From positions 1 to 64,000 of IMG/VR virus record IMGVR_UViG_3300025669_002088: a stretch of 64,000 bases of DNA; one strand, given 5' to 3'. Every line of letters starts with the position of its first letter. Position 1 is the first letter of the stretch. The stretch is from a virus. This document shows, piece by piece, positions 17,268-63,970 of this stretch. Made by a program: the position numbers and the translations under genes. A model generated the notes under the pieces. It saw nothing but the letters and a program-made list of their open reading frames with translations. It searched no databases and was not told the DNA's origin.

Positions 17268-18440
17268 TTACGCCCCTGCCTTGAAGTTGTAGACCGGCTT
17301 CAACCGGGCCTTGATTTCGACCGTGTCCCCGATGCAGTCCTCAACGGTCTGCGAGTCCTTATATGCCATCGGAGCTTCATCCAAGGTTTTCCGGGTCACA
17401 CAGGAGGTCCAAACGTCCTTCATCGTGTCCCTGAATTCCTCCAGGGACAACTCCCGCTTGGCCCTTCCCCGAGCCATCTTCCGTCCGGCCCCGTGGGGTG
17501 CCGAGTTGTTCCAGTCCTCGTTACCTTTGCCTTCGCCCAAAATACACCCATCCCGCATATTCCAGGGTATGATGAGTTCTTCCCCTGCCTTGGCCGAGAT
17601 GGCACCCTTGCGGATGATGTCGTCGTTCCCGATGAAGTTGTGTACCGATGTGACCATTTCCAGGTCTGCCAGTTTCAACCCGAAAAAGCGTACCAGTTCT
17701 GTAGCCATCACCAAACGGTTCAGGGCTGCCAACTGTTGGGCCAGACGCATTTCACGAAGATAGGACCGAGCGTCATCTCCAGTCAGCCAAGCGAGACCAC
17801 CCCAGGAACCCAACTTGGTCTTGGCAACATTTTGATGCTTCTCAGCTACCCGTAGACCGAAATTCCGGGAACCGGAATGGATAATCAGCCAAACATCTGC
17901 ACCGTCCTTTTCCTGATCCAGTTCTAAGAAGTGGTTCCCTGACCCCAAAGAACCAAGAGAATGCCACACCTTACTCCCATCTCCTCGGGCACTCCAGTCC
18001 ACATCATTCACGGTGTCCTGAAAATCAGACCAGGAAGGGCCTCTCCCCAAGTAGTGTTTGAACAAGTATGGGAGGTCTTTGGACACCTCTGTTCGGTTCC
18101 GAAACCCCGAAGGGACATGGGTTCGCAAATGCTTATCGAAAGCTTCGAAATCAGTCTGATCTTTGGTTGTGCCCGTTAACCGAACAGCGTTTACGCCGCA
18201 CCCAATATCGACCCCAACAAGAGAGGGCACAACAGCCAAGTCCTCCTCATCCAGGGGGCAGGTGAATCCGATCACACAACCAAAGCCTGCGTGATGATCG
18301 GGCATGATCCTCACTTTGGCCCCCGCAAAAGCGGGGAGATCCAAGAGTGCGTAGATCTGCTGAGCCTCCAATTGATCTGGGTAGTCCCCGTAAACAACAG
18401 CCGTTGTCCGGCCTCCCTGAATGGTGTGTCCTATACTCAT
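17268..18440 (-). CDS. rtcB: RNA-splicing ligase RtcB
   Basis: RtcB joins RNA 2',3'-cyclic phosphate or 3'-phosphate ends to 5'-OH ends using GTP and Mn2+. The 390-aa protein has the family motifs in order: MPDHHAGFGCVIGF (metal His), VGVDIGCGV (Asp/Cys metal ligands), SLGSGNHFLEL, IHSGSRNFG and APHGAGRKMARGRA (the guanylated His). All visible metal and active-site residues are present. The ATG at 18438-18440 has GGAGGG upstream. A copy of the promoter motif lies 22 nt ahead. In phages it likely repairs tRNAs or other RNAs cut by host defences. Confidence 0.95.
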   Translation of the reverse strand: MSIGHTIQGGRTTAVVYGDYPDQLEAQQIYALLDLPAFAGAKVRIMPDHHAGFGCVIGFTCPLDEEDLAVVPSLVGVDIGCGVNAVRLTGTTKDQTDFEAFDKHLRTHVPSGFRNRTEVSKDLPYLFKHYLGRGPSWSDFQDTVNDVDWSARGDGSKVWHSLGSLGSGNHFLELDQEKDGADVWLIIHSGSRNFGLRVAEKHQNVAKTKLGSWGGLAWLTGDDARSYLREMRLAQQLAALNRLVMATELVRFFGLKLADLEMVTSVHNFIGNDDIIRKGAISAKAGEELIIPWNMRDGCILGEGKGNEDWNNSAPHGAGRKMARGRAKRELSLEEFRDTMKDVWTSCVTRKTLDEAPMAYKDSQTVEDCIGDTVEIKARLKPVYNFKAGA

Positions 18441-18461
18441 TAAACCCTCCGTCACAAGGGT

Positions 18462-25102: not shown

Positions 25103-25138
25103 GTCGTGTCCTTTAGAAATGGATGCGTGGATTGAAAT
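25103..25138 (+). repeat. Orphan CRISPR-repeat-like sequence at the end of the thyX operon
   Basis: 36 nt long like the array repeat and matching it at 29 of 36 positions, including the whole 3' half (GGATGCGTGGATTGAAA). The 5' stem half changes GCATCC to GTGTCC, which still pairs with GGATGC in RNA through two G-U wobbles. Structure therefore seems conserved. The orientation equals that of the array. What follows is the 3' end of the opposite-strand gene. Confidence 0.85.
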
Positions 25139-33698: not shown

Positions 33699-34222
33699 CA
33701 CCTAGTCCTTTTCGTTTTCCGGAAGAGCGTGAGCCGTGGCCCTACAAATGTCCCGCAGGATCCCTCGGAGCACTTTGGCTTTGTTGTCTGCTTGTAAGGC
33801 CCTGTTCAGGGCCTTTTCCTGTCGATCCTTTTCCTGTACCCTGTCTGCTGTGGCCTTTGCCCGAATTGCCCGCTTTTCCGCTGACCTTATAGCTTCCACC
33901 ACTATTGTTAGCGCCACATCGAGTGGTTCAGAGGGAAAGGGAACAGCGCACTGGACATGCTCATAGTCCCAACCCTCGTACTCGTAACTTCCACGAGTAG
34001 TGAGCAACTCCAGAGCAGCCTCAGCGTCCCCTTCTGACGCCTTCTGCGCCAGTTCAAAATGTTTCCTTCTGGTCTCCCAAATCTTGAGGGACTGCCTGTC
34101 ATTTTGCAGTGCTCTTAGGTAGGGGTTGTGCTGGGCGTCCACAGCGAATTCCAGAGAACGTGTTTGGAGGTCGGAACGGGTCTCCTCGGAAAGGCTCGAA
34201 GGCTCTGGCCCTGGGTCGGGGT

Positions 34223-35733
34223 CCTTGACAGTACCCAATTTAGTTGCTAAAATCTAACTATTCCTGCTTGAAACAAGAAGCAGAGGTCAGTAAATGAAGT
34301 GTCGCATCTTCCGACTTCACAAGGACACCAACCGATCTAAGATCGATAAGTTGGAAGCCCTGCACAAAGCATATGTCAAGTACGTCCGTATCTGCGTACA
34401 GACGATGCTCAACCAGCAAACCCTCAACCTCCCGAAAGCCGCCAAACAAACGTTCTTCCCACGGGCTACTGATCTTACGTCTCAAATCGAAAAGATCGCA
34501 CGAGACCATGCAATTCAAATCGTAAGTGCTTGGGCCAAAGCTACTTACGCTCGTAAATTAAAGCCGACTATCACCAATCTCAAGCATGACGGTACCCTCA
34601 CCGATCAGGACGCCAAAGCACTCTGTGTCATCGGGTTGAAGTCCATCAGCAAGCCATGGGAGTTCATCACCCAAGACCATCTCGATGCTTATCACACCCT
34701 GTTGGACACCTACGGAGGCAACAAGCCTATCGTAAGGGACAACCTACCCATGAGGTTGTCAGAAATGACGGCTCGATTGGAAGACACAACTAAAGCTCCT
34801 TTGGGGGGTTTTTGGCTGAGGGTGTCCTCGTTGGAAGCTCGGAAATCCGTCTGGTTGCCTCTTGTTGGGAATCCTTACATCCAGCAGGCTGATCAGGTTA
34901 ACAAGGGGATATCAGCCCGTAAAACCAAGAAGGGGTTCTGGCGCTTTGAGGCAGTTAGCAAGGCTGAGTGGACCATTCCTGAAGCACAGGAAGATTGGCC
35001 TAAGTTGGGTGTGGATGTGGGCTTGAACGTGCTTGCAGCTACTTCAGATGGCGTGACCTATGGTGAACACGTCAAACCTAAGTTCGACAAGCTCTACGCT
35101 CGTGTCAGAAATCTCCGAGCAAACCGCCAACGACAGGACCTGAAGGACAACAGCCCAAAGTTGGATCACCTTGAAAGCAAGCTGAGTGGGTTGATCAAGA
35201 CAGAAACGGGTCGTGTAGTAAACACCCTTATCGTCCGCCATCCTGAGACAGTGTTCGTGGTCGAGGATCTCGACCTTCGAGGTTGCCGAGGCCAAAAGCG
35301 GTTTGCTTACAGGGCGTTACAGACCAACTTGGAGAGAAAAGCCCCAACAGAGAAGGTGAACCCGGCTTATACGTCGCAGGAGTGCCCCTCCTGCGGTTAC
35401 ATTCATCGAGGCAACCGAAGTTCAATAAGGTTCCATTGCCGCTCGTGCGGTAGGAAGGCTCACGCTGATTGGGTGGGAAGTTCTGGTGTGCTCAGACGTT
35501 CTGAAGACGAACACATCAAAGCTGGCGATCATCCAAGAGGTGTAAAACGAGTGCTAAGAGAGCGATTCCGTGTTAAACGGACCAGTTCCTTGGGATTCGG
35601 GCGGAAGGAGCAACCGTCATTCGAGCCCTTACCGTTGGGCCAGAGGCTTACTACCGTTGGATCAGAGTCATTTGGCAGCGGCACAGCTTCAAACTTGATG
35701 CCTGTTACATTCCAGCAGGTTTTAAGGAACGGT
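34223..35733 (+). mobile_element. IS605-type element with tnpB and no tnpA (1511 bp)
   Basis: The left end starts CCTTGACAGTACCC, preceded by GGGGT. The right end is TTTTAAGGAACGGT, followed by ACCAGTG. Both ends match the two 350-bp elements in this window. There is no target duplication and the cut follows GGGT, as expected of single-strand IS200/IS605 transposition. The 3' part of tnpB plus the right end is conserved in the minis and probably encodes the omega-RNA. With no tnpA here, movement needs a transposase elsewhere. Confidence 0.88.
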
Positions 35734-36503: not shown

Positions 36504-36525
36504 CTGTGTGTATAGGGGGGGACAG

Positions 36526-38886
36526 ATGCCCAACTGGAACCGAATAGCCCACAGCGCCAGCAAAGTAACCGGCAAGGTCCAAACGATGGTGGAACATCTG
36601 TTGGGGGTTGAAGCGCTGACTCTCCGTTTCCTGGGCACCCACTTCCCACCCCAGCACGTCAGAGAGGTTTCTTTCGCCAGCCGGGGGCATGACATCGGCA
36701 AATACAGTCCCCTGTTCCCTGATGTACTGAACGGGGTAGCCCGAGGGGTGCTGGATCATTCCTCACCTGGAGCCTGGGTTGCTTACGACCGAGGATCCCT
36801 CCTCGCTTCCCTGTTGATCGCCGGACACCATAGGGGTCTGCCGGATTTCTCACGCGTCTATTTGGGGTGTGTCCTACGCCCCTCTGCACAGCCGATGGGT
36901 AGCGGGACTCATCCTAACCCCGGTGTCTTCCATGTCTATCCGGGGCCAGCGAAAGACTTGTTGGTTCCCCTACGTGAGGATGGCATCGAGCTTCCTGAAA
37001 TCAATATAAATGATGATGAGACCTTCTTTTCTTTTTCTGAACTGGTGAAAGGCTGGCAGTTGTCCATTGCCAAGGGCTTGGATGTCCGAATGGCCTTTTC
37101 TGCGCTCGTTGACGCCGACTTCCTGGACACCGCCGAGCACTTCAAACCAGGGCGCACCTGTCCCAACCCCCCGTTGGACGCCGGTCTCGCCCTTGACGTT
37201 TTGAACAAATACATCGACGGCCTCAGTGCCAAGAGCAAACGCAGCGATGGTGCTTCCCCTGTGGTGCAACAGGAACGGGACCGTCTACGACAGGACTGCC
37301 TCAGAGCCGCCCAGGGGCCTCCAGGACGCATTTTGACCTGTACAGCCCCCACCGGTGTAGGCAAAACTCTAGCGCTGGTCTCGTTCGCCCTGGCGCACTG
37401 TCAGGCCCACCAACTTAAACGGGTGATCATCGCTGTACCCTACAAAAGCATCATTCAACAGACGGCGAAAACCCTGAAGGAGCTTTTCAAGGACCGGGCC
37501 TTCGGTCCCCACTTTGTGTTGGAGCATCACACGGACGCCACGCAGTGGGTCGAAGAGGAGGATCTCCAACAGGATGGTAGATCAAATGAGATTGACCGAC
37601 GAGGGCTCACTGAAAACTGGGATGCACCAATCATCCTCACCACGAACGTTCAACTATTGGAGTCCTTGTTTTCCAATCGGCCAGGGAGATGCCGGAAACT
37701 CCACAACATCCAGGACTGCGTGATCATTTTTGATGAGGGCCAGTCTTTGCCCAGCCACCTTATGCTCCCCACAATAGCAATGCTCGACCGACTCAGCCGT
37801 CAGTATCAGGTCACGGTGGTGTCTGCCACGGCCACCCAGCCTGCCTTCCAGAGCATCCTGCCTCAGGTAGAAACACTCGTGGGGGAACCGCTCCAGCCCT
37901 ACGAGGAGATTGCCTCCGCCCCCGTAGCCTCGGCCAAGGCGATGGTCCGCAACAAGTTTCACTGGCCGCACAACGACGACGAGAGGTGGACCTGGGCGCA
38001 GTTGGCTGACCGGGTGTGTTCGGAAAGGATGTCAAACCTCGTGCTTCTCAACAGGAAGGACCATGCGGAAGCGGCCTGGAGGGAAATACAGACACGGTGG
38101 GGGGCGGATCGAGCTATCTATTTGACTTCCAACCTGTGTCCAGCCCACCGGAAGGGGCTACTCAAAGAGGTGGTTCGTCGGTTGAAGACCGTTGGGGACT
38201 ACTTCGTTCTGGCAGCTACTCCTTGTGTGAACTCAGGGACGGACTTCGACTTCAACAGGGGCTTCCCGGCCATGGGACCGTTGGATGGGACGGCACAAAC
38301 CGCTGGGCGGGTAAACCGGGAGGGCTTGCGGGTACTAGGGGACATCTTCGTTTTCCGCCCGGACGTTGAATACAAGGACATGTTCCCGCATGACGAGTGG
38401 TTCCAGGCTGCTGCCCGGATCACGGAGCGGTTCCTCCGGCGCTACGGACAACGTCTCGACCCGACGAACCCGGAAATCTTGACCCAGTACTATGAGGCCC
38501 TCTATCGGGAAGCAGGGCTAGATCACCCGGCCACCAAAAAGATCATCGAGGCGTACCAGGAGGGTTCCTTCGAGAAGGTCAGTCGACGCTACCGGGTCAT
38601 TCCCGACAAAGGGGTCCAGGTCGTCGTTCCCTACCTGGAAGGAGGGTGTGGGGAGCAGTACAGGAAACTCAACAAGGAGCGGCCCACCCGGAAAAGCTTC
38701 CGGATGTGGATGAACCGAGCGGCCCTGCTATCGGTCTCTGTTCTGTCACTGAAGAAGGATCACCCCCTCTGGCTCAGCCTTGACCCCGTCACGCTGAAAA
38801 GGAAGGACGGCTCCATCACCGAAACGGGCTGGTACATCTGCACTGACCCAAGAGCCTACCACCCGGAACTTGGGCTGGTGCAATGA
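36526..38886 (+). CDS. cas3: Cas3, CRISPR type I helicase-nuclease (HD plus DExH)
   Basis: Cas3 is recruited by Cascade and shreds target DNA. The 786-aa protein has an N-terminal HD domain: VEHLL, SRGHDIGKYSPLF, LDHSSPGA and IAGHHRGLPDF, all metal ligands visible. The SF2 helicase has Walker A APTGVGKTLAL (about 275), DEGQSLP (motif II), SATAT (motif III) and GRVNREG (motif VI). The ATG at 36526 follows AGGGGGGGACAG. Nothing looks inactivated. It heads cas3-cas5-cas8c-cas7. Confidence 0.95.
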   Translation: MPNWNRIAHSASKVTGKVQTMVEHLLGVEALTLRFLGTHFPPQHVREVSFASRGHDIGKYSPLFPDVLNGVARGVLDHSSPGAWVAYDRGSLLASLLIAGHHRGLPDFSRVYLGCVLRPSAQPMGSGTHPNPGVFHVYPGPAKDLLVPLREDGIELPEININDDETFFSFSELVKGWQLSIAKGLDVRMAFSALVDADFLDTAEHFKPGRTCPNPPLDAGLALDVLNKYIDGLSAKSKRSDGASPVVQQERDRLRQDCLRAAQGPPGRILTCTAPTGVGKTLALVSFALAHCQAHQLKRVIIAVPYKSIIQQTAKTLKELFKDRAFGPHFVLEHHTDATQWVEEEDLQQDGRSNEIDRRGLTENWDAPIILTTNVQLLESLFSNRPGRCRKLHNIQDCVIIFDEGQSLPSHLMLPTIAMLDRLSRQYQVTVVSATATQPAFQSILPQVETLVGEPLQPYEEIASAPVASAKAMVRNKFHWPHNDDERWTWAQLADRVCSERMSNLVLLNRKDHAEAAWREIQTRWGADRAIYLTSNLCPAHRKGLLKEVVRRLKTVGDYFVLAATPCVNSGTDFDFNRGFPAMGPLDGTAQTAGRVNREGLRVLGDIFVFRPDVEYKDMFPHDEWFQAAARITERFLRRYGQRLDPTNPEILTQYYEALYREAGLDHPATKKIIEAYQEGSFEKVSRRYRVIPDKGVQVVVPYLEGGCGEQYRKLNKERPTRKSFRMWMNRAALLSVSVLSLKKDHPLWLSLDPVTLKRKDGSITETGWYICTDPRAYHPELGLVQ

Positions 38887-38980: not shown

Positions 38981-39652
38981 ATGAAAAAAGGTATGCTGCA
39001 CGGGTTGGAAGTGTGGGGGGACAATGCCTGCTTCTCCCGCCCAGAGGTGACGGAGCGGACCACCTACCCCATCCCAACCCACTCAGCCTGTCGGGGGATC
39101 TTCGACGCTATCTACTGGAAAAGGTCCGCCAACTTCTACTGGCAGATCGTCGGGGTAGAGGTTGTGAACCCGATCCGGTACATGGGGATCATGCGGAACG
39201 AGATGAAAGACAAGGTCACCCGCCGCACTCTTCAGGTTGATCTTACAACCCAGAAGCACCGGACCCAAAAGCACACCAGGACTCTCCTGGACCCCCGGTA
39301 CCGCATCTTCGCACGGGCGGTCTGCCGGAATCCTGATGGGAACACCAACGCCATCGACGCCCAATTCCGTCGTCGGGCGGAGAGGGGCCAATGTTTCCAC
39401 CAGCCCTTCTTAGGTTGCAAGGAGTTTATGGCCAACTTCCAGCTTGTCCCGGTGGATGAGCATGATCCATCACAGGGACTCGCAGACCTTCAGGTGGACG
39501 TGGGGGTGATGGTCTACGACACCTTCAATCTGCTGGTGCCCGATGGAGATCCTTCGGTCAGCGTGTTCCACGCACAGATCAAGGATGGGGCCGTGGCCTA
39601 CCCGGAGTTCACTGATAGTGCCGCCGTGTTCCGGCCAGGGGGTGCAGCATGA
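38981..39652 (+). CDS. cas5: Cas5d (type I-C), pre-crRNA processing endonuclease
   Basis: In type I-C, Cas5 replaces Cas6 and cuts the repeat hairpin to leave the 5' handle. The 223-aa protein starts MKKGMLHGLEVWGDNACFSR and has PIPTHSACRGIFDAIYWK, a Cas5d hallmark. The TQKHRTQKHT segment and the Tyr in DAIYWK match the Tyr/Lys/His set used for cleavage in Cas5d. Start preceded by GGAGGGACAG. It overlaps cas8c by ATGA. Confidence 0.95.
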   Translation: MKKGMLHGLEVWGDNACFSRPEVTERTTYPIPTHSACRGIFDAIYWKRSANFYWQIVGVEVVNPIRYMGIMRNEMKDKVTRRTLQVDLTTQKHRTQKHTRTLLDPRYRIFARAVCRNPDGNTNAIDAQFRRRAERGQCFHQPFLGCKEFMANFQLVPVDEHDPSQGLADLQVDVGVMVYDTFNLLVPDGDPSVSVFHAQIKDGAVAYPEFTDSAAVFRPGGAA

Positions 39653-41481
39653 GTGGTATCGGACAGAGCCTCCTCAACTATGCCGCACACTATATGCCCC
39701 AGCAGGCTCCGGTGGGGTACGAGTACCTGACCGTCGTGGAAACCGTAGTGTGCCTGACCCCGGACGGGAAGTACCAGGACTGTCACCTCAGGGACACCAA
39801 GACGGCCTCCCCGATCCTGACACCTCGGGTGCCCTCCAATTTGCTCAGGGCCACGCCCCCCAAGACTCACTTCTTCATCGGGTATGTCCCCCAGGTGTTC
39901 CCTCTCCTCGTGGCCGAACCGCACGACAACACCAAGAACGAGGTGAAGAGGGGCCTCTTCCTGGAGCAGATCAGAACGGTCATCAAGGAGGTTCCCTGCA
40001 CTCGGAAGTACCTGACCCCCATCCAGACCTTCCTGGAGGACGACGAGCAGGTCGCCCTTGTGGTTCAGGCTCTGACGAAGATGGAGGCAGACCTCAAGCG
40101 GGCTGTGATCTTCCAGACCGAGGGGAAGAAACTCGGCATCCCGTTCCAGGACAAGAAGGAATGGCGGGAGTGGTGGGCGACCTACCTTTCAGGAGCGGAC
40201 AAAAAGAAGAAGACCAGCGATAAGACGTTCCGCTGCGTCGTCACCGGGGACGAGATCACGAACCCCTGCCGCATCCATCCTGACGGCATTGCCTTCGGCA
40301 CAACGAAGACGAAGCTGGTTGCCGCCAAGCAGACCTCCAGTCACCACTATGGCCAGGAGTCTGGCCTCGTTGCTCCGATGTCAGACCAGACGGCGAGCAC
40401 AATGACCCAGGCTCTGGTTCATGCCGCCCAAAACGCCGGGACGGCCTTTGGGGATCTTCGAATCCTTGTGTGGGCTTGTTCCAGGGGAGAAACCCTTACG
40501 GGGAAGGCTGGACTGCTGGCGGGCCAAGGGCCGGTTCTTGAAGGGGGCGAGTGGACCCAGATCCTGTCCGACGTTATGTCCGACCTCTTGAACTCGGGAT
40601 TGACGGATGGGGAACTCCGGGGTGCCACCCGGAAGGTGAAGGAATACCTGGACACGGGCACCGGACCGGGAGGTGTCCTAGACATGGACTGCACCTTGGG
40701 CATCGTTTCTAGCAACGGTCCCCGGTTGGCTGTCCGGCACTGGGAGACTGGACCCCTGTCCGTCCTGTTCAAGAACATCTATCGATGGTATCAGGATATG
40801 ACCATCAGCAACAACCGCAATGACACGGGGATCGCCCGCCTTTCTGCACTCTGGCAGATCCTTTCCGCTGTCAACGGCCCAAGGGGCAAAGCTTCCGAAC
40901 TGGAGCGTGAGATGCTCGTTCAGGTAGCCCTGCGGGGCCAGTCGGTCCCAATGAGCATTGTCAAAAAGGCCCTGGTGCAGTTCCGGTCACAGTTGCACCT
41001 GTCCATCAAACCGTCAACCAACATGGGGATCGCTCCGGCATTGCCGGGAATCCTCAAAACCTTCATCAACAGGAGAGGGAACACCATGTGTGAAGCAGGA
41101 TTGAACAAGGACCACCCGAGTGTGGCGTACCAGTGTGGGCGGTTGTTGTCCGTCCTGTCCGAACTCCAGAGCCTCGCCATCGGTGGGAGGAACCCCCCGA
41201 TGGCCCTGGCTGCTCAGTTCTCGTCCGCAACGATGCAGAACCCGGCCCGTGCGCTGGCCCGGTTACTGCTCCGTTCCGAGAAGCACGTCAACAAGCTCGT
41301 CCGACAGGGAAAGGGATGGGCGGATCACAAACGGCAGGAGATCGTCGACCGCCTGCCCACAGACCTTCCGACCCGCCTCGGCATCGAGGATCAAGCTTTG
41401 TTTGCCATGGGGTTGCTCCACCAGCGCTCGTCCTGGAAGAAGCAGGACAAGCCCGCAGGGACACCCCCGATTAAGGCATAG
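39649..41481 (+). CDS. cas8c: Cas8c (Csd1), large subunit of type I-C Cascade
   Basis: 610 aa, normal for Csd1. The N-terminus has MSGIGQSLLNYAAHYMP and YEYLTVVETVVCLTPDG. The family-typical FRCVVTGDEITNPCRIHPDG (about 198-217) and the ARALARLLLRSEKHV region near the C-terminus are present. It recognises the PAM and holds the complex. In I-C an internal start can yield Cas11c; an in-frame ATG near 41087 (MCEAGLNKDHPSVAY), preceded by GGAGAGGGAACACC, is a good candidate. Confidence 0.95.
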   Translation: MSGIGQSLLNYAAHYMPQQAPVGYEYLTVVETVVCLTPDGKYQDCHLRDTKTASPILTPRVPSNLLRATPPKTHFFIGYVPQVFPLLVAEPHDNTKNEVKRGLFLEQIRTVIKEVPCTRKYLTPIQTFLEDDEQVALVVQALTKMEADLKRAVIFQTEGKKLGIPFQDKKEWREWWATYLSGADKKKKTSDKTFRCVVTGDEITNPCRIHPDGIAFGTTKTKLVAAKQTSSHHYGQESGLVAPMSDQTASTMTQALVHAAQNAGTAFGDLRILVWACSRGETLTGKAGLLAGQGPVLEGGEWTQILSDVMSDLLNSGLTDGELRGATRKVKEYLDTGTGPGGVLDMDCTLGIVSSNGPRLAVRHWETGPLSVLFKNIYRWYQDMTISNNRNDTGIARLSALWQILSAVNGPRGKASELEREMLVQVALRGQSVPMSIVKKALVQFRSQLHLSIKPSTNMGIAPALPGILKTFINRRGNTMCEAGLNKDHPSVAYQCGRLLSVLSELQSLAIGGRNPPMALAAQFSSATMQNPARALARLLLRSEKHVNKLVRQGKGWADHKRQEIVDRLPTDLPTRLGIEDQALFAMGLLHQRSSWKKQDKPAGTPPIKA

Positions 41482-41541
41482 TCTCTAATGGCCTAAGGTG
41501 GGCCTTAGAGTTGGATTAGGCATAAAGTGAGGAGAAGTATC

Positions 41542-42552
41542 ATGAAGGATCTTTTGATGTGGCTGAAGAGTGGGACGGCGGCAATCGGATACAGGTTCGA
41601 GATCTTGTTCCTGTTCGATTGTCTGATGGGGAATCCCAACGGTGACCCCGACTTCGGCAACCTGCCCCGGACCATCCCGGACACGGGACACGGGTTCGTC
41701 ACCGACGTCGCCATCAAGCGGCGTCTCCGCAACTACGTGAGTCTCCGCAAGGCAGGCAAGACCCCGTACCAGATTTTGCTGATGATGAACACCTGTACCA
41801 ACAGGCTCATCGCCAAGGCCCACGAGGACTCCCACGGGACCGTCCCGGCGAAGGCTACCAAGCAGGAGGAGCGGGCGGCGGGTGACCGGATGTGCCAGGA
41901 CTATTGGGATGTCCGCACCTTCGGCGGTGTTCTCAACACAGGTGCCAAGGCGGGCCAGATTCGTGGACCCGTCCAGGTGGTGAGTGCCCGGTCCCTCGAT
42001 CCGGTATCCATCCAGGAGATCACCATCACCCGCATGACCGACACCAAGGGCTCCCCTGATCCCAAGAAGGTCAAGACCCCCAAGGATCAGGGTTTCTCCT
42101 CCGCCCAGTGGCAGGAGTATGAGGACGGGGCCGAGGCGGCGGCTCTCCGCACGATGGGAACCAAGGCGATCATCCCCTACGGTCTCTTCGCTGCCAACAT
42201 CACGGTGAGCGCTTTCGTGGCGGAACAGACGGGCTTCTCGGCGGAGGATCTGGCCCTGATGATCGAGGGTCTGGAAAACATGTACGACCATGATCGGACC
42301 TCCAGCAAGGGTTTGATGACCTGTCGGGGCATCTACATCTTCAAGCACGTCGGGACGGCGGACGACCCCGAAGAGCGGGCACAGCAGGCCAAGCTCGGGT
42401 GCGCCCCGGCCCATAAGCTGCTGGACAACGGACGCATCGTGACTGTGGTCAAAAAGGACGGGGTAGAGGCCCCGATGTCCTTCGACGACTACACTGTCAC
42501 CGTGGACGAGTCCAAGCTCCCGGAAGGTGTCGAGTTCCGGGCCATCCAGTAA
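41542..42552 (+). CDS. cas7: Cas7c (Csd2), crRNA-backbone subunit of type I-C Cascade
   Basis: The ATG at 41542 follows GAGGAGAAGTATC; 336 aa. It has YRFEILFLFDCLMGNPNGDP, then NTGAKAGQIRGPVQVVSARS (RAMP-type G-rich region) and MYDHDRTSSKGLM (about 250), all typical of Csd2. Six copies wrap the crRNA. The next element downstream is the array leader; cas4, cas1 and cas2, which normally follow in I-C, are absent. Confidence 0.95.
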   Translation: MKDLLMWLKSGTAAIGYRFEILFLFDCLMGNPNGDPDFGNLPRTIPDTGHGFVTDVAIKRRLRNYVSLRKAGKTPYQILLMMNTCTNRLIAKAHEDSHGTVPAKATKQEERAAGDRMCQDYWDVRTFGGVLNTGAKAGQIRGPVQVVSARSLDPVSIQEITITRMTDTKGSPDPKKVKTPKDQGFSSAQWQEYEDGAEAAALRTMGTKAIIPYGLFAANITVSAFVAEQTGFSAEDLALMIEGLENMYDHDRTSSKGLMTCRGIYIFKHVGTADDPEERAQQAKLGCAPAHKLLDNGRIVTVVKKDGVEAPMSFDDYTVTVDESKLPEGVEFRAIQ

Positions 42553-42748: not shown

Positions 42749-43933
42749 GTCGCATCCTCTAACAAAGGATGCGTGGATTGAAACAGAGGTTCCGCCGGAG
42801 ACCTATAACGTCAGGCTGGTCGTCGCATCCTCTAACAAAGGATGCGTGGATTGAAACGTTACTGCCCGCATGACACCCCGGATGAGATCACCAGTCGCAT
42901 CCTCTAACAAAGGATGCGTGGATTGAAACACTGTGGACCTGGCGGGGAAGAAGCCGACCTATGGTGGTGTCGCATCCTCTAACAAAGGATGCGTGGATTG
43001 AAACTTTCAAACAGCGACCCAGTCGAGTGCGACTTGGTGGGTGTCGCATCCTCTAACAAAGGATGCGTGGATTGAAACAAGTGCCTCGCCGTCAAGGATC
43101 CAGAGGGGAAGCTGAAGTCGCATCCTCTAACAAAGGATGCGTGGATTGAAACAGGCCCACAGAACGGCTCCCACGGCCTGGGGACGCCGTGTCGCATCCT
43201 CTAACAAAGGATGCGTGGATTGAAACGCTCAGAGGACTGCTCGACGGGACAAGACGGTCTTCCTCGTCGCATCCTCTAACAAAGGATGCGTGGATTGAAA
43301 CTCGAAGTTGGGCGAAATCCAGGAATGACGGTCACAAGTCGCATCCTCTAACAAAGGATGCGTGGATTGAAACAATCCGATGACACTTCCCTTTCCTGTC
43401 CGCCCTTGGAGCGTCGCATCCTCTAACAAAGGGTGCGTGGATTGAAACGAGATCCCCCTTGCGACTCCCGCCCTGAAGGCGCTGGCGAAGTCGCATCCTC
43501 TAACAAAGGGTGCGTGGATTGAAACGTAAGCGAACTCCACCCCTGGTCCGTGGGTGACCGGTCGCATCCTCTAACAAAGGGTGCGTGGATTGAAACGCAG
43601 TGAGCCAGCGCCCCACGAGCCATGCCTGCCTTACTGTCGCATCCTCTGAAAAAAGGATGCGTGGATTGAAACTAAATCCGATTTACGGGGAACTGGCTGG
43701 TCGGCTCACGTCGCATCCTCTAACAAGGGGTGCGTGGATTGAAACGCTGATTCGGACTGATCCCTGAGAAGGCGCAACCCTGCCGTCGTACCATCTAACA
43801 AGGGGATGCGTGGATTGAAACGAAACCGCAGCGAGGCAGAAGGGGTCACTCCCTCACGGGTGTGTGGATTGAAACATTAGGGTAGTAAGTGTAGACAACC
43901 TCGTCGTTCCCATGAGGGGGCGTGGATTGAAAC
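42749..43933 (+). CRISPR. Type I-C CRISPR array, 17 repeats and 16 spacers
   Basis: The repeat is 36 nt, beginning GTCGCATCCTCTAACAAAGG and ending ATGCGTGGATTGAAAC, with a GCATCC/GGATGC hairpin and the I-C-type 3' tag ATTGAAAC. Repeats start at 42749, 42822, 42894, 42969, 43043, 43117, 43191, 43266, 43338, 43413, 43490, 43561, 43636, 43710, 43785, about 43843 and 43903. Spacers 1-14 are 35-41 nt; the last two are shorter (21-27 nt). Repeats 1-9 are identical. From repeat 10 variants appear (GGGTGC), and the last five are degenerate, marking the leader-distal old end. No spacer matched this window by eye. Confidence 0.98.
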
Positions 43934-44945: not shown

Positions 44946-44967
44946 GTCGTATCCTTTGACAAAGGGT
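44946..44967 (+). repeat. Half of a degenerate CRISPR repeat cut by the miniature IS
   Basis: GTCGTATCCTTTGACAAAGG matches the 5' part of the array repeat (18 of 22 positions over 44946-44967). It stops at GGGT, exactly where the 350-bp element begins. The expected other half (GCGTGGATTGAAAC) is not on the far side of the element. Confidence 0.75.
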
Positions 44968-45317
44968 ACTTGACAGTGCCCTTCATACCTGCTAAAGTCT
45001 AACTGTTCCTGCTTGAAACAGGGAGCTGTTGCGGCAGGAAAGCTCATGCTGATTGGGTAGGAGGTTCTGGTGTGCCCAGATGTTCTGGGGACGAACGCAT
45101 CAAAACTAACGATCATCCGAGAGGCATAAAACGAGTGCTAAGAGAGCGATTCCGTGTTAAACGGACCAGTTCCTTGGGATTCGGACGGAAGGAGCAACCG
45201 TCATTCGAGCCCTTACCGTTGGGCCGGAAGTTTACTACCGAGGTACTTGGGACACCAAGATTCGGCACAGCTTCAAACTTGATGCCTGTTACATTTTAGC
45301 AGGTTTTAAGGAACGGT
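44968..45317 (+). mobile_element. 350-bp miniature IS605-type element (PATE-like), second copy
   Basis: Same length, ends and internal deletion junction as the element at 26428-26777, with scattered base changes. The left flank is a CRISPR half repeat ending GGGT. The right flank, GCGACATC, is the methyltransferase leader. At the window start the same GCGACATC is preceded directly by GGGGT, as expected of an empty site. The two flanks therefore do not belong together, suggesting recombination through element copies. Confidence 0.85.
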
Positions 45318-47227: not shown

Positions 47228-48100
47228 TTACACGGCCTGGGACAGGTCCACCGTGATCTCGGTCGGGCTGACCGTGACCTTGTAGTACTTCCCGCAGGGG
47301 AAGGGGTTGGCCTTGTCGCCGCTGGAGAACAGTACACAGCCTTTTTCCGAGGAGATGTTGCACGCCTTGGCCCCGATGCCGGGATCCGTCAGGGTGACAA
47401 TGACATTGCTGTCGGTCTCCACCTGGACGAACACCGGCTGGCCTGCCCGGATGCTGGTCCCGCTCATGTGGCAGAGGGCCTCGAAGATCCCCCGCCCCAG
47501 GTGCATCCGGGGTTCCTGGCGGGTCTCGGTCCGCACGGAGGCGACGTAGTCGTCTGCCTTGAGCTTGGAGGCCGCTCCGGCGATGACCACGTTCTTCGTG
47601 TACGCTGCCTGGGCGTTGGCGTGGGCAAGGGTACCGGGTGCGCTGGCGGCGCTGGTCGTGGTCAGGGAAGGGGGAGGGGCGTCCGCCATCGTCTCCATCC
47701 GTCCCTGGTCCCAGCGGGGGACAAAGATCTCGAACTCGTGGGCGTCGCAGGCATCGGTGTTCGGTCCGTACACGAACACCTCGACACCCGGCTCGGTCCG
47801 GTCCGGATACAGGCCCACCGTGAAGCGGCTGCGCTGCACCGGGGAGCAGGGACCGTTGCCGTTCCCGTACTGCGGGAGGGTGTCCCCGTAGAACAGGTCA
47901 CGCAGGTAGGAACCGAGGATGGTGGTCCTGAAAGCGAAGTCCGAACGATGGACCCGCAGGACTGCGGTGACCTCACCGCTGGAGTAGCAACGACCTGCTT
48001 CCGCCCAGAGGGCAAGAAGGTCCTCCACTGCGGTCTTCCAGTCGGGGGAGTTGGCGATGGCGTCGGCGTTGCGGGTGTCTTCGATCTCGATTGCACTCAT
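47228..48100 (-). CDS. Hypothetical protein with a CRISPR-repeat-like mRNA leader, 290 aa
   Basis: The ATG at 48098-48100 (MSAIEIEDTRN) follows GAGGAGGCACCAA. N-terminal domain to about residue 140, an Ala/Pro/Ser-rich linker (PPPSLTTTSAASAPG), then a beta-rich C-terminal domain with VFVQVETDSNVIVTLTDPG. No family recognised. Between promoter (48162-48187) and ribosome site lies a degenerate CRISPR repeat in sense orientation. Cas5d might therefore cut this mRNA; that is a hypothesis. Confidence 0.65.
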   Translation of the reverse strand: MSAIEIEDTRNADAIANSPDWKTAVEDLLALWAEAGRCYSSGEVTAVLRVHRSDFAFRTTILGSYLRDLFYGDTLPQYGNGNGPCSPVQRSRFTVGLYPDRTEPGVEVFVYGPNTDACDAHEFEIFVPRWDQGRMETMADAPPPSLTTTSAASAPGTLAHANAQAAYTKNVVIAGAASKLKADDYVASVRTETRQEPRMHLGRGIFEALCHMSGTSIRAGQPVFVQVETDSNVIVTLTDPGIGAKACNISSEKGCVLFSSGDKANPFPCGKYYKVTVSPTEITVDLSQAV

Positions 48101-48118
48101 TTGGTGCCTCCTCATTTG

Positions 48119-48150
48119 GTTTCAATCCATGCACCCTCAGCGAGTGCAAC
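48119..48150 (-). repeat. CRISPR-repeat-like hairpin at the 5' end of an mRNA
   Basis: The minus strand reads GTTGCACTCGCTGAGGGTGC then ATGGATTGAAAC. The 3' half matches the array repeat, including the full ATTGAAAC tag. The 5' half forms its own 6-bp stem (GCACUC with GGGUGC, one G-U). The predicted transcription start from the promoter at 48162-48187 falls about 2 nt before it. Confidence 0.8.
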
Positions 48151-48161
48151 TGCTACCTTGT

Positions 48162-48187
48162 CTACTCCAACGGTCCTGGAGATGATC
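48162..48187 (-). promoter_or_regulatory. Element-specific promoter motif
   Basis: Minus strand: GATCATC - 12 nt - GGAGTAG, feeding directly into the CRISPR-repeat-like hairpin and the 290-aa gene. Confidence 0.75.
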
Positions 48188-48231
48188 CTTTCTTTTGGCT
48201 CCGTGTCCTCATTGCGTCCTCAAAGCGTTCA

Positions 48232-48807
48232 CTAAATCAGGGACCAGTCAGCGATGCAGCAGGGGACCGCCCGTGTGCCAACTTCGTACTGGAGGGCATC
48301 CGGTGCCCACTCCATCGGCCCCAGGGACGTGGCCAACATTTCCTTAAGGGATCGTGCGTCCGCATAGGTCAACCCCTTGAAGGTGTCAGGCTGTACCAAG
48401 CGGGAACGAAGCTGCCCCATGTCCGAGTTATCATCCAGGATAGCGATCTTCAGCGTTTCCGGTTCCGGGTGATAGGTGCGGAGGAACCACTGGATCTCCA
48501 TCCCACGCCCGGCAGTCCTGTGAAGTTCAGCATCATCTAGATGGATGACAGGAGTCCGTCCGATGATGGGTGCTGTGAGACCCTTGTCACCCAGCATATC
48601 GACCAGTTCGTTCATGTGCCACAGGTGCCTCCAGGTAGAGGAGATCACCACAGCAGCGTCCACAGGGGCCAACACTCGCTGGAGCCTGCGGCATAGGACC
48701 GGGTCGAGATGGTCCCGTCCGAGGTTCAACCGTTTCGCTTTCTTGAACCAGGAGGTGCGGTTTAACACTCCATCGATGTCCAGGAAACATAGGGTGTCGG
48801 GGTTCAT
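48232..48807 (-). CDS. HAD-like phosphatase (HAD_SAK-type)
   Basis: The ATG at 48805-48807 overlaps the upstream stop (ATGA). Of 191 aa, the start CFLDIDGVLNRTSW is HAD motif I with both Asp. VVISSTWRHLWHMNELVDML provides motif II (Ser/Thr) in the SSTWR form typical of the HAD_SAK group. KIAILDDNSDMG gives motif IV. The group is associated with RNA repair enzymes, so it may act on nucleic-acid ends; this fits RtcB and the cREC-like protein in the window. Confidence 0.8.
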   Translation of the reverse strand: MNPDTLCFLDIDGVLNRTSWFKKAKRLNLGRDHLDPVLCRRLQRVLAPVDAAVVISSTWRHLWHMNELVDMLGDKGLTAPIIGRTPVIHLDDAELHRTAGRGMEIQWFLRTYHPEPETLKIAILDDNSDMGQLRSRLVQPDTFKGLTYADARSLKEMLATSLGPMEWAPDALQYEVGTRAVPCCIADWSLI

Positions 48808-49091
48808 CCTGTCTTCTTCACGGAGGCCCCCCAGCCGGGACGGGCCAAAACTGAGCGGATTTCCCGTTGCCTGGTCTTCGGGTGCATCCGGTGCCGGAAC
48901 TGGTGCCATGCTGTTGCCGGGATACCCTGCACGTTCTCGTACACGGTTCCCATGTACTGCCAGATTTCACCACACTCGGGGTGCTCGCAGGCAATGGGAT
49001 CCGCTTGGCCCAGGTTGATGTCCGCTGTCGCCAACTGGTCCCAGGCGTAGTCCCACTCGGGGGTGCCCTGATCGATGAAGTGAATGCTCAT
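48804..49091 (-). CDS. Hypothetical protein, 95 aa
   Basis: Overlaps its neighbours at both ends. CEHPECGEIW suggests a metal site, followed by the basic C-terminal HRMHPKTRQREIRS. No family recognised. Confidence 0.6.
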   Translation of the reverse strand: MSIHFIDQGTPEWDYAWDQLATADINLGQADPIACEHPECGEIWQYMGTVYENVQGIPATAWHQFRHRMHPKTRQREIRSVLARPGWGASVKKTG

Positions 49092-54437: not shown

Positions 54438-54463
54438 GATCATCTCCTCCGACCCCAGAGTAG
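54438..54463 (+). promoter_or_regulatory. Element-specific promoter motif plus leader hairpin
   Basis: Plus strand: GATCATC - 12 nt - AGAGTAG, then GAGGGGCAAATGACCCT (about 54471-54487), then the gene at 54501. Drives a four-gene operon to 56654. Confidence 0.8.
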
Positions 54464-54500
54464 TAGAGGTGAGGGGCAAATGACCCTGAAGGAGAACGAG

Positions 54501-55265
54501 ATGAAAACCAACGCCAACAGCAAACTGCTCGCCGTCATGCTCGAAAAGGCTCACGCTGGTTTCACCGGATTGCAGATCACAAAAAAGGGAACGGTCCGGG
54601 GCGGTCTCGTGTACGGAGATGAAAGGGTTTGGGTTACACTCATTACGGGGTTCCACTATGATCGCCTCGTGCAGCGCAGTCTGAATGTCCTCCCGGACGT
54701 GTGGGCCACGGACATGATCACCAAGGCCGCAGCCGAGGGCCACACAATCACGGTAGCGGACGTTGAGCAGGCACGGGGCGAGTTGATTGCCTCCTTCGAG
54801 AGGAGCCTCGCCGGGAACAACACCTCGGACAGCACCGCAACCAACAGTCACGTATTCGAACCGCTGGTGGTTGACGGGGAGACCGTCCGGGGGAGCAAGG
54901 TCTATCATTGCGTAAAGGGAACACGGGACAGGAATGGAGCCTACCGGATGTGCCACTGCCGGAACTGTACGGGAGAACCCCGTGCCGCCTTGCCGGGAAC
55001 CATTTATCTCCACGCTCTCAAGACACATTCCAAGGTGCTGGAACCTGCCCCAAATGGTCCAATCCCGGAGCCCAACAGCAAACCCAAAACCATCGCCAAG
55101 AACACCCTGCGGTCAATGCTCCCGGTCAGCCGCTACGTCAGCTATGTCCTGGAGCCGGGTACAGGCTTCATTCTCGCTGCAGGCGGGGTGGCGAAAATCA
55201 TGGCAGCGGAAAATGGCTTCATTGCAACCGACGAGGTTGTCCAGATCGTACAGCAGGTGATCTGA
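54501..55265 (+). CDS. Hypothetical protein, 254 aa, paralogue of 57319-58137
   Basis: The ATG at 54501 follows GAAGGAGAACGAG; an in-frame ATG in the leader is an alternative. Shared with the gene at 57319-58137: KKGxVRGGxxYGDxxVxVxxxTGFHYxxLVxRS and a C-terminal AKxxIRxxLPVxxYVxYxL. An insertion with CHCRNCTGEP may bind metal. The conserved middle (ALPGTIYLHALKTH) is also shared. Function unknown. Confidence 0.7.
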   Translation: MKTNANSKLLAVMLEKAHAGFTGLQITKKGTVRGGLVYGDERVWVTLITGFHYDRLVQRSLNVLPDVWATDMITKAAAEGHTITVADVEQARGELIASFERSLAGNNTSDSTATNSHVFEPLVVDGETVRGSKVYHCVKGTRDRNGAYRMCHCRNCTGEPRAALPGTIYLHALKTHSKVLEPAPNGPIPEPNSKPKTIAKNTLRSMLPVSRYVSYVLEPGTGFILAAGGVAKIMAAENGFIATDEVVQIVQQVI

Positions 55266-60526: not shown

Positions 60527-61230
60527 ACAAGTTCCGCAAAAGACTGGCCGAAATGGGGCTGGTGGAACCCGTATCCGAATGGTTCCTGGACTACGTGGCC
60601 CGTATGACACGGTACATGGAGGAAAATGACGGGAGGACACCCCCTCAGACGTATGCCTGCGAAGATGGGTACAAGCTAGGGTCGAAAACCAACTCCATCC
60701 GAACTAGCTACCGCCGAGGAACTGGTCATAAGCTTACGTCCGAGATGATTCGGATGCTCGATGACATTGGCTTCCCGTGGAACGGGAACGGGTGGTTCAA
60801 AGGTGTCCTTCGCCGTCTGATTGAGTACAAGGCGGAACACGGTCACTGCGCCCCCCCTGGCACGCATGTCCACCATGACGGATACAAGCTGGGGAAACGA
60901 GTACAAGTGATCCGTTCCGGAAGGAGGGGCATAGGTAGTCTCAAGGTCACCTCCGAGATGGTCGAGCAGCTTGACGCTATAGGGTTTGTCTGGGACGCCT
61001 GCAACACTGGCAAATGGTGGCCAGAGTTCTACGCCCACATCAAAGCGGTGCTGGAAAAGTACCCCGTGGGCCACATCCCGAAGGACTACGTGTGCCCCGA
61101 TGGGTACAAGTTGGGAGAAAAGGCGAGCCATGTTCGATGCGGGAGACGAGGCAAAGGTTTCCTCCAAGTGATCCCCGAGATGATCGCCAAACTTGATGCC
61201 CTCGGTTTCCTCTGGGTGGTTCCGAGATGA
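60523..61230 (+). CDS. HA-repeat protein 1 (three helicase-associated domains)
   Basis: The ATG overlaps the helicase stop. The 235-aa protein consists of three units of about 70 aa, each with W-F...L..Y...HG-P..Y.C.DGYKLG, then VR..R.G...T.EM...LD.IGF-W. These are HA domains (PF03457 type), three-helix modules thought to bind nucleic acid. Nothing else is in the protein. It is probably a partner of the helicase. Confidence 0.85.
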   Translation: MNKFRKRLAEMGLVEPVSEWFLDYVARMTRYMEENDGRTPPQTYACEDGYKLGSKTNSIRTSYRRGTGHKLTSEMIRMLDDIGFPWNGNGWFKGVLRRLIEYKAEHGHCAPPGTHVHHDGYKLGKRVQVIRSGRRGIGSLKVTSEMVEQLDAIGFVWDACNTGKWWPEFYAHIKAVLEKYPVGHIPKDYVCPDGYKLGEKASHVRCGRRGKGFLQVIPEMIAKLDALGFLWVVPR

Positions 61231-62153
61231 ACAAGTTCCGGCAACGCCTCAGTGTGTTGGGTTATGTGCCTTCCTGGCCAGCTTGGTTTGACCTCTTCCT
61301 GGAGAAACTGAAGGAATACAAAAAGGAGCGTGGGCACTGTCAGGTGCCTAAATCCTACAAGTGTCCCGAGGACGGGTACCATCTGGGGGAACGGGTAATG
61401 GTTGTTCGGTCAGCTAAGAGAGGCAAAGGGAACGTCACACTGACCGACGAGATGACCAAGGAACTCGACGCCATCGGTTTCGTATGGGATCCGAGGGAGT
61501 GGTTCCCTGAGTTCCTGGAGAAACTGAAGGAATACAAAAAGGAGCGTGGGCACTGTCAGGTGCCTAAATCCTACAAGTGTCCCGAGGACGGGTACAAGCT
61601 CGGGGGCAGAGTAGATAATGTCCGACAAGCTAAGAGAGACAAAGGGAGACTCAAAATAGCCCCCGAAATGATCAAGGAACTCGACGCCATTGGGATCGTG
61701 TGGGATCCGAGGGAGTGGTTCCCTGAGTTCCTGGTGAGGCTGAGGGAATACAAAAGGGAGCATGGCCACTGTCAGGTGCCGACGTCCTACAAGTGGCCCG
61801 AGGACGGATACCATCTGGGGGAACGGGTAAGGGGTGTTCGGTCAGCTAAGAGAGGCAAAGGGACGGTCATCCTGACCGACGAGATGACCAAGGAACTCGA
61901 TGCCATCGGGTTCGTGTGGGATCCGAAGGAGTGGTTCCCTGAGTTCCTGGTGAGGCTGAAGGAATACAAAAAGGAGCACGGGGACTATCAGGTGCCCACA
62001 TCCTACAAGTGTCCCGAGGACGGGTACAAGCTCGGGACACGGGTAAAGGGTGTCCGACAAGCTAAGAGAGGCATAGGCAGGATCAAAGTGACTCCCGAGA
62101 TGATCAAGGAACTCGACGCCATCGGTTTCGTGTGGGAGGTCATCCGTGCGTAG
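61227..62153 (+). CDS. HA-repeat protein 2 (four near-identical helicase-associated domains)
   Basis: 308 aa with four HA units. At DNA level the units repeat with an exact 216-bp period (anchor GGAGAAACTGAAGG-type sequence at 61301, 61517, 61733 and 61949), and long stretches are identical, so the duplication is recent. Variation is concentrated after GxRV (MV, DN, RG, KG) and in the following VR.AKR.KG segment, likely the surface that contacts DNA or RNA. Start overlaps the previous stop. Confidence 0.88.
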   Translation: MNKFRQRLSVLGYVPSWPAWFDLFLEKLKEYKKERGHCQVPKSYKCPEDGYHLGERVMVVRSAKRGKGNVTLTDEMTKELDAIGFVWDPREWFPEFLEKLKEYKKERGHCQVPKSYKCPEDGYKLGGRVDNVRQAKRDKGRLKIAPEMIKELDAIGIVWDPREWFPEFLVRLREYKREHGHCQVPTSYKWPEDGYHLGERVRGVRSAKRGKGTVILTDEMTKELDAIGFVWDPKEWFPEFLVRLKEYKKEHGDYQVPTSYKCPEDGYKLGTRVKGVRQAKRGIGRIKVTPEMIKELDAIGFVWEVIRA

Positions 62154-63150
62154 GAGGAGCAACAAATTCAGACTGCGGCTCGTTGAGCTTGGGCGGATGA
62201 AACCTTGGCCAGCGTGGTTCGATGAGTTCCACTCCCACCTTCAGACGTACAAGGCGGAGCACGGGGATTGTGAAGTGCCCCACAACTACAAGTGTGAAGA
62301 CGGGTACCGCTTAGGGAACAAGGTGGGGCGAATCCGTTCCGCAAGGAAGCGCCCATCAAACCGTGTGTTGACGGAGGAGATGAGTACTGCCCTCGATGCC
62401 ATCGGTTTTGACTGGCTGGCTCCAAAAGATCGCTGGTTCCAAAAGTTCCGGGTTCGTCTGGTGGAATATATGACCGCTCACGACGGCCAAAACCCACCCG
62501 TTCCTTATGAGTGCCCCGATGGATACACCCTGGGTAAAACTGCCGCCGCTGTTCGGGCAGCGAAACGGGCAAGGGCACTGAATAAGAAGGCGTTCCGGCA
62601 ACTCACGGATGAGATAATTGCTGACCTGGACGCACTTGGATTTGAATGGGAACCCTCGGAATGGTTCCCCGACTTTGTGCAGCGTTTGCGTGAATACAAG
62701 GCGGAACATGGGAACTGTTCGATCCCTGTCAAATTTGAATGTGCGGATGGACACAAGTTAGGCCTGAGGGTCCAACGCATCCGAACGAGCATCCGCCGGT
62801 TGGAGGAGGGCAGCGATGAGTCGATGCCCCTCCAGGTCACCCCAGAGATGGTCTTAAAACTGGATGCCCTCGGGTTCGAGCGGGACCGGAACCTGACGGG
62901 CAAATGGTTCCCCAAGTACCTCAGTCACCTGACGAAGTTCTACCGGGAGCACGGCGACAGCATGGTGCCCAGGGGATATTGCTGTCGGGATGGGTACAAG
63001 TTAGGGGCCATGACGAACAGCGTTAGAGAGGGCCGTAGGGACGCAACAGGTCGGAGGAAAATCACCCTGCCCATGGTTGCTGATCTAGCTGCCCTCGACT
63101 TTATGTGGGATGTTCGAATAACGGGATCATCTCGGCCACCTACAGAGTAG
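62146..63150 (+). CDS. HA-repeat protein 3 (about four to five helicase-associated domains)
   Basis: GTG start overlapping the preceding TAG; 334 aa. Opens NKFRLRLVELGRMKPWPAWF, then HA units of about 70-80 aa, more diverged from each other than in protein 2. One unit has an expanded loop (RRLEEGSDESMPL). The next promoter copy lies within its last codons. Confidence 0.85.
   Translation: MRRRSNKFRLRLVELGRMKPWPAWFDEFHSHLQTYKAEHGDCEVPHNYKCEDGYRLGNKVGRIRSARKRPSNRVLTEEMSTALDAIGFDWLAPKDRWFQKFRVRLVEYMTAHDGQNPPVPYECPDGYTLGKTAAAVRAAKRARALNKKAFRQLTDEIIADLDALGFEWEPSEWFPDFVQRLREYKAEHGNCSIPVKFECADGHKLGLRVQRIRTSIRRLEEGSDESMPLQVTPEMVLKLDALGFERDRNLTGKWFPKYLSHLTKFYREHGDSMVPRGYCCRDGYKLGAMTNSVREGRRDATGRRKITLPMVADLAALDFMWDVRITGSSRPPTE
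63125..63150 (+). promoter_or_regulatory. Element-specific promoter motif
   Basis: Plus strand: GATCATC - 12 nt - AGAGTAG at the end of HA-repeat gene 3, 20 nt before the GTG of gene 4, which can thus be transcribed alone. Confidence 0.8.
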
Positions 63151-63169
63151 TCTTGGTAGGAGGTCGTCC

Positions 63170-63970
63170 GTGGGCAAAAGGAACAACAAATTCCGTGAAC
63201 GTCTCGCCAAGCTTGGGCTGATGAAACCTTGGCCAGCGTGGTTCGATGTGTTCCTGGCACATCTGAAGGCGTACAAGGAAGAACACGGGGACTGTAAGGT
63301 GCCGCAGCTTTACAAGTGTACTGACGGGTACACATTGGGGAACAGGGTCGGGGACATTCGCAGGTTTCGACAAGGGAAAAGTGTTCGGACAGTGACTCCC
63401 TCAATGGTGCCTGTACTGGATCAACTCGGTTTCCTTTGGGAGATCCCCTGTTGGTTCGACGAGTTCCTCCGGCGTCTGAAGGACTATAAAGCCGAGTACG
63501 GCCATTGTCAGGTGCCCACCCAGTACAGATGTCAGGACGGGTATAGACTTGGCCCAAAAGTGAATGCTGTTCGGACAGGCAAAAGGCACAAAGTGGGCGT
63601 CCAAATCACCCCGAGCAGGGCGGAGAAACTTGAGCAACTAGGTTTCCTGTGGGATGTCCCGACAGAGTGGTTCCCGGAGTTCCTGGAACATTTGAAGGCG
63701 TACAAGGCCGTGCATGGCCGTTGTCAGGTGCGTGGCACCTATGTATGCGATGATGGCTACAAACTAGGCCATCACACAGCGGGGGTACGAAATCACCGGG
63801 TCTTGACCCCCACTATGCGGAGCCAACTCGGTGCTCTCGGCTTTGTCTGGGACGCCACCACGAAAGGGCAGTGGTGGCCGGAGTTCCTTTGTCACCTCAG
63901 AGAGTACATGGACGCACACGGGGGACAGACACCCCCCCAAAAATACGTCTGCCCCGGCGGATGGCCGTAA
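63170..63970 (+). CDS. HA-repeat protein 4, apparently frameshifted at its 3' end
   Basis: GTG start after AGGAGGTCGTCC. Three full HA units and part of a fourth (266 aa). At about 63950 the unit should read CPxDGxKL, but the frame reads CPGGWP and stops. One base less in the CCCC run near 63950 restores ADGRKLTPTQINQI, a normal HA continuation to the window end. So this is either a real frameshift or a sequence error; the gene continues beyond the window. Confidence 0.75.
   Translation: MGKRNNKFRERLAKLGLMKPWPAWFDVFLAHLKAYKEEHGDCKVPQLYKCTDGYTLGNRVGDIRRFRQGKSVRTVTPSMVPVLDQLGFLWEIPCWFDEFLRRLKDYKAEYGHCQVPTQYRCQDGYRLGPKVNAVRTGKRHKVGVQITPSRAEKLEQLGFLWDVPTEWFPEFLEHLKAYKAVHGRCQVRGTYVCDDGYKLGHHTAGVRNHRVLTPTMRSQLGALGFVWDATTKGQWWPEFLCHLREYMDAHGGQTPPQKYVCPGGWP

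Follow-up and report, generated by a model that had tools for sequence, protein, structure and literature searches.

CRISPR endoribonuclease sites, such as those cleaved by Csy4 and Cas6, change translation when they are engineered into 5′ untranslated regions. The locus described here likewise has a CRISPR endoribonuclease hairpin in what appears to be an mRNA leader, but the engineered leaders are man-made, and a limited literature search found no natural counterpart of them.

The established reading of solitary CRISPR repeats is that they act as RNA anti-CRISPRs, or Racr (PMC10651486). RacrIF1 and RacrIC1 are lone, virus-encoded repeats that are transcribed from a nearby promoter and sometimes share their RNA with a protein gene (PMC10651486). 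The repeat at position 48119 of the phage DNA studied here is likewise lone and virus-encoded, and a putative promoter box lies upstream of it, where the Racr precedent leads one to expect a promoter. The type I-C hairpin and handle are also common to this unit and to the solitary units of phages (PMC10651486). It differs from the Racr cases in that the repeat would be the first element of the mRNA, right before the ribosome-binding site (RBS), in that the virus has its own type I-C system, and in that the arms of the repeat are complementary to the start codon region.

CreTA and CreR are a second point of comparison (PMC9458426, PMC12737573). They too are built on a degenerate, cas-linked repeat outside the array, in which the stem has diverged and the handle has been kept. 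In CreA and CreR, two repeats enclose a spacer with a partial match to the promoter that they regulate. Unlike them, the 48119 unit has no second repeat and no spacer that matches a promoter, and it does not lie at a cas or toxin gene.

The virus and its type I-C system

The window, which is the whole stretch of DNA that was analysed, covers positions 1-64 kb of a virus record that is 125,741 bp long and comes from a large phage with its own CRISPR system. The components of that system are:

36508..38886 (+), cas3 with HD and helicase parts, of the I-C type (PADLOC Cas3c, E=1e-142)
38981..39652 (+), cas5d/cas5c, a candidate pre-crRNA endonuclease (TIGR01876, 102.7 bits against a cut-off of 85; solved I-C Cas5 relatives)
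39649..41481 (+), cas8c (Pfam Cas_Csd1, E=2e-66)
41527..42552 (+), cas7c (Pfam Cas_Cas7, E=2e-76)
42749..43933 (+), CRISPR array of 17 repeats, the final two only 31 nt long

Short and degenerate repeats lie at the old end of the array. No cas1 gene was found in the record or in its two relatives, G001 and G002. The spacer nearest the array leader varies among the three assemblies (42785-42821 in the window, 54460-54502 in G001 and 188140-188175 in G002), and the remaining shared spacers are identical. The unlike leader-proximal spacers suggest that spacer acquisition was recent, despite the lack of a detectable Cas1 in these contigs. The array protospacers had no convincing match among the fetched loci or phage records. 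A search for a host repeat ending in GGGTGCATGGATTGAAAC gave 14 genome matches, roughly what chance would give, a few of them variant units within unrelated I-C arrays, and no host was assigned from them.

Of the relatives, G001 hardly differs from the window; its assembly looks chimeric, with the join at a transposon-like repeat. G002, a 188-kb contig, has the array and the promoter boxes in common with the window virus and may be either another part of the same genome or part of a sister genome. Repeat copies bearing a transposase flank the cas and array region on both sides (34219-35733 and 44964-45317 in the window; 68886-70402 in G000), and the assemblies are broken or misjoined at these copies. 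The window also contains a long run of diverged protein repeats of about 72 codons (216 nt), which fall into families D1-D6, at 60650-63900.

The solitary repeat and the gene behind it

The features around the repeat, all on the minus strand, are given in the order in which they would be transcribed:

48162..48188 (−), viral promoter box, GGATCATCT-N12-GAGTAG, a perfect match, recognised by its recurrence
48119..48150 (−), solitary degenerate type I-C repeat of 32 nt, GTTGCACTCGCTGAGGGTGCATGGATTGAAAC, recognised by the array-only covariance model and covariation
48101..48118 (−), leader with the Shine-Dalgarno sequence (SD) GAGGAGG and a GCACC spacer, from sequence and folding
48089..48100 (−), start codon region, ATGAGTGCAATC
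47228..48100 (−), repeat-led open reading frame of 290 aa, its start chosen by the proper SD GAGGAGG

The original prediction, made from the letters alone, was that a degenerate repeat with an intact tag lies at 48119, and this was borne out. The unit has a 7-bp stem followed by an intact 11-nt 3′ tag, TGGATTGAAAC; the tag sequence ATTGAAAC, at 48126-48119 (−), has no other minus-strand copy within the window. A covariance model trained on the array repeats alone, with the 48119 unit excluded, recovered the unit from 314 kb of sequence at 31.3 bits (E=5.2e-7). The other solitary units scored E=2e-11 to 1e-8, and the next match after all of the units was at E=0.057.

The claim that the stem had been altered and still pairs held as well. 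Compared with the array, the stem carries the compensatory changes C-G to U-A, U-A to C-G and C-G to U-G. When all of the repeats, array and solitary, are taken together, five of the seven stem pairs show two-sided changes, a number reached by none of 500 shuffles, and 94.8% of the stem cells are paired. The 48119 repeat itself has 7 substitutions, yet all 11 nucleotides of the tag and every stem pair have been retained.

The stem followed by TGGATTGAAAC and the GT(C/T)GC start assign the unit to type I-C. It is single and intergenic, with no other repeat within 100 bp and the nearest unit 4.2 kb away. An array remnant was considered and rejected, as there are no more repeats nearby. Identity to the virus's own array repeat is about 78% by alignment; the SRUFinder rule of at least 90% refers to known CRISPR repeats in general, and the 78% to this one array repeat. 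The unit is a genuine solitary repeat of type I-C that forms the putative 5′ leader of a viral mRNA.

The placement depends on the promoter box, which has 27 matches within the window where 1.4 are expected, and copies of which recur just 5′ of an RBS and ATG across the record and the group of relatives. The repeat had been described as lying 12 nt behind this box; the perfect box is there, but the gap is 11 nt. Judged from the box, itself recognised by recurrence, transcription would start so that the repeat forms the 5′ end of the mRNA, in keeping with what had been proposed. Directly after the repeat comes CAAATGAGGAGGCACCAAATG and then the 290-aa frame, so the predicted order of RBS and 290-aa gene was confirmed. 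A mechanical reading of the same gene starts at 48115 and gives 295 aa. RNA anti-CRISPRs often have acr genes close by. Neither the 290-aa nor the 136-aa open reading frame has a family match in Pfam, PHROGs, PADLOC or NCBIfam, and the AlphaFold model of the 290-aa protein (pLDDT 36) is unusable. The only relative found for this protein is an identical copy in G001.

Many leaders behind the viral box carry a hairpin, GGTGAGGGGCAAATGACCCC, with the loop CAAATGA, for example at 22355-22336 (−), 33495-33476 (−) and 54468-54487 (+). In the 48119 leader, the same CAAATGA comes after the tag of the repeat. A gene for an RNA-repair-type HAD phosphatase (48232-48909, −) is the close upstream neighbour of the repeat-led gene, and the phage also encodes an RtcB ligase (17268-18455, −). 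Cuts by CRISPR endoribonucleases yield ends of the RtcB type.

One explanation for the repeat is that it is a relic or a generic hairpin, recombined into the promoter region and kept, with no Cas role, as an ordinary 5′ stabiliser comparable to the GGGG-CAAATGA-CCCC hairpin found in many of the virus's leaders. A hairpin at this place is normal for the virus group, in which a short 5′ hairpin occupies the same position in at least 19 leaders, and short degenerate repeats exist at the old end of the array. A generic hairpin has no need of a tag, however, and here the tag and all of the stem pairs were kept through the substitutions. We consider a relic rather improbable.

The analogy with CreA/CreR that had been drawn for the repeat is not supported in its guide form. 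Here, Cas5d would free a crRNA-like RNA, the “spacer” of which, about 34 nt made up of the gene's own RBS region, would send Cascade to another promoter, as ectopic degenerate repeats do in CreTA and CreR (PMC9458426, PMC12737573). No second repeat lies behind the 48119 unit, the 34 nt past the tag match only themselves above background in G000, G001, G002 and the relatives, and self-targeting would require a PAM at the very place where the repeat tag stands. With neither a second repeat nor a target for the 34 nt, a guide RNA is not supported and is highly implausible.

Solitary repeats elsewhere in the virus and in other phages

The virus has at least three further solitary repeats, all found with the array-only model and located in the window and in G002:

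25103..25138 (+), second solitary repeat, GTCGTGTCCTTTAGAAATGGATGCGTGGATTGAAAT, between convergent genes (E=1.2e-8)
G002:165706-165741 (−), solitary repeat starting 8 nt past the stop of a 255-aa gene
G002:140890-140926 (−), intergenic solitary repeat, with the stop of a convergent gene 3 nt away

These units resemble the virus's own 36-37-nt repeat class and sit at or near gene ends. The 25103 unit, for example, starts 5 nt past the stop of a 60-aa gene and touches the stop of the convergent gene; it belongs to the class by length and loop, though it is more diverged. No other virus in the viral collection has this class, represented by the array and the two G002 units. Only the 48119 unit, among the four solitary repeats, is positioned as an mRNA leader.

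The viral collection was also scanned for GTGGATTGAAAC followed by GGAG and then ATG, with a scrambled tag as the control. The pattern was found in 95 viral contigs, in none of them within an array, against 2 for the scrambled tag; the antisense arrangement occurred in 30 contigs. After removal of near-duplicates and with a proper stem required, 21 sense and 4 antisense cases were left, about 3 of the 21 being doubtful. Type I-C repeats right before an RBS recur in many phages, and the pattern is not unique to this virus. Like the 48119 leader, the repeat leaders of other phages (for example L165, L168, L178, L182, L241 and L254, as well as L147) have an I-C repeat right before an SD and an ATG and in the orientation of the gene. 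Any repeat that is transcribed should show this co-orientation, which cannot by itself separate regulation from a decoy. In another phage, a truncated I-C repeat stands right before the RBS of a 498-aa gene (L147:246-270, L148:1915-1891); by eye the product looks like a major capsid protein, and it had no match in NCBIfam.

The main rival to a regulatory role is that the repeat is an RNA anti-CRISPR decoy on a viral mRNA with strong expression, the 290-aa gene being incidental to it. The decoy would capture Cas5d and Cas7 from the type I-C system of a host, or temper the phage's own. Inhibition of CRISPR has been demonstrated for viral solitary repeats, among them RacrIC1, which is co-transcribed with an acr gene (PMC10651486). 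The varied contexts of the four solitary repeats fit a role in trans, and phages recurrently carry I-C repeats right ahead of an RBS. On the other hand, the virus's own I-C effector would be inhibited too, and within the viral collection the 36-37-nt class is confined to this virus, so that the array and the G002 units match the virus itself and no known host. A decoy also does not predict the exceptional pairing of the repeat with its own start codon. It is a serious but unlikely alternative, kept close by the four scattered units and the Racr precedent.

Predicted pairing with the start codon and a possible Cas5d-controlled leader

The original prediction had not included any pairing of the repeat's arms with the start codon or the SD-AUG spacer; both are now predicted as well. 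TTGCACTC, the 5′ arm of the 48119 repeat, is exactly complementary to GAGTGCAA, a stretch that starts within the start codon (ATGAGTGCAA), and the 3′ arm GGTGC is complementary to the GCACC between the SD and the ATG. A duplex between repeat and start region as good as this one was reached by 10 of 5000 shuffled and 6 of 395 real phage start regions, and neither the array repeats nor the other solitary repeats pair equally well with the start of the 290-aa gene. By shuffling, the pairing has z=-4.0 and p of about 0.002, values for a feature that was spotted post hoc. Start-codon pairing as a general trait of phage repeat leaders was rejected: the z values of 19 other repeat-led phage genes range from -1.6 to +1.0, and only the 48119 case stands out. 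The leader is known as a single allele (G000 and G001 are the same there), and the pairing is for this reason without covariation support.

The energies computed for an 82-nt leader are -20.7 kcal/mol with the start codon locked and -17.7 kcal/mol for the best structure that contains the repeat hairpin. The hairpin is favoured while the transcript reaches no further than about 10 nt beyond the ATG, and this result is robust when the 5′ end is moved 6 nt in either direction. The leader is thus predicted to be bistable, with two exclusive folds, one of which covers the start codon; both folds are computational. In short 3′ contexts, the predicted cost of opening the SD-AUG region falls from 6.7-8.5 to 3.9-4.8 kcal/mol after a cut. 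When 40-60 nt of coding sequence are added, the advantage of the start-locking fold shrinks, the balance of folds becomes mixed and the gain from cutting is smaller, which makes the switch a prediction and not a demonstration.

The reading we favour, at a probability of about 0.4, is that the repeat is a leader recognised by Cas5d that controls translation of the 290-aa gene. Sequence and comparison show the parts from which it starts: a type I-C repeat behind a promoter box, a stem with covariation, a gene for Cas5d, and complementarity that is out of the ordinary. The repeat hairpin would be the first to form on the emerging mRNA. After transcription of the start codon, the arms of the repeat could re-pair with it and with the SD-AUG spacer, and translation would be held down. 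Cas5d would bind the repeat hairpin and cleave it at the base, separating GGGTGCA from TGGATTGAAAC. The cut would take away the inhibitory arm and free the start codon, so that expression would track free Cas5d. The sign could also be the opposite: if Cas5d and Cas7 stayed bound at the 5′ handle and covered the ~34 nt behind it, SD and AUG included, the result would be repression. Both the cutting and the direction of regulation are what we infer from the arrangement.

That the arms can pair with both the start codon and the SD-AUG spacer offers a concrete link from Cas5d to translation. Together with a matching Cas5d of the I-C family encoded in the same genome, the exceptional start-codon pairing tilts the balance towards a Cas5d-controlled leader over a decoy. 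None of the 19 other repeat-led phage genes compared has this pairing. What counts against the Cas5d-controlled leader is that the virus's three other solitary repeats sit outside such leaders. The fuller proposal, in which the phage's own Cas5d and repeat form a natural translational switch that makes a viral gene's expression depend on free Cas5d, and in which the arms lock the start codon, is more doubtful still. Taken as a whole, the interpretation offered in the original prediction is partly supported.

If the favoured reading is true, CRISPR RNA processing would also serve as ordinary gene control. Lone CRISPR repeats in phages are now read mainly as RNA decoys, and their recurrence ahead of an RBS (95 contigs against 2, with 21 non-redundant, stem-bearing cases) suggests that it is worth studying these repeats in the context of their mRNAs. 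Strong mRNAs may be the vehicles of some decoys, and Cas5d of host or viral origin may cleave some mRNAs.
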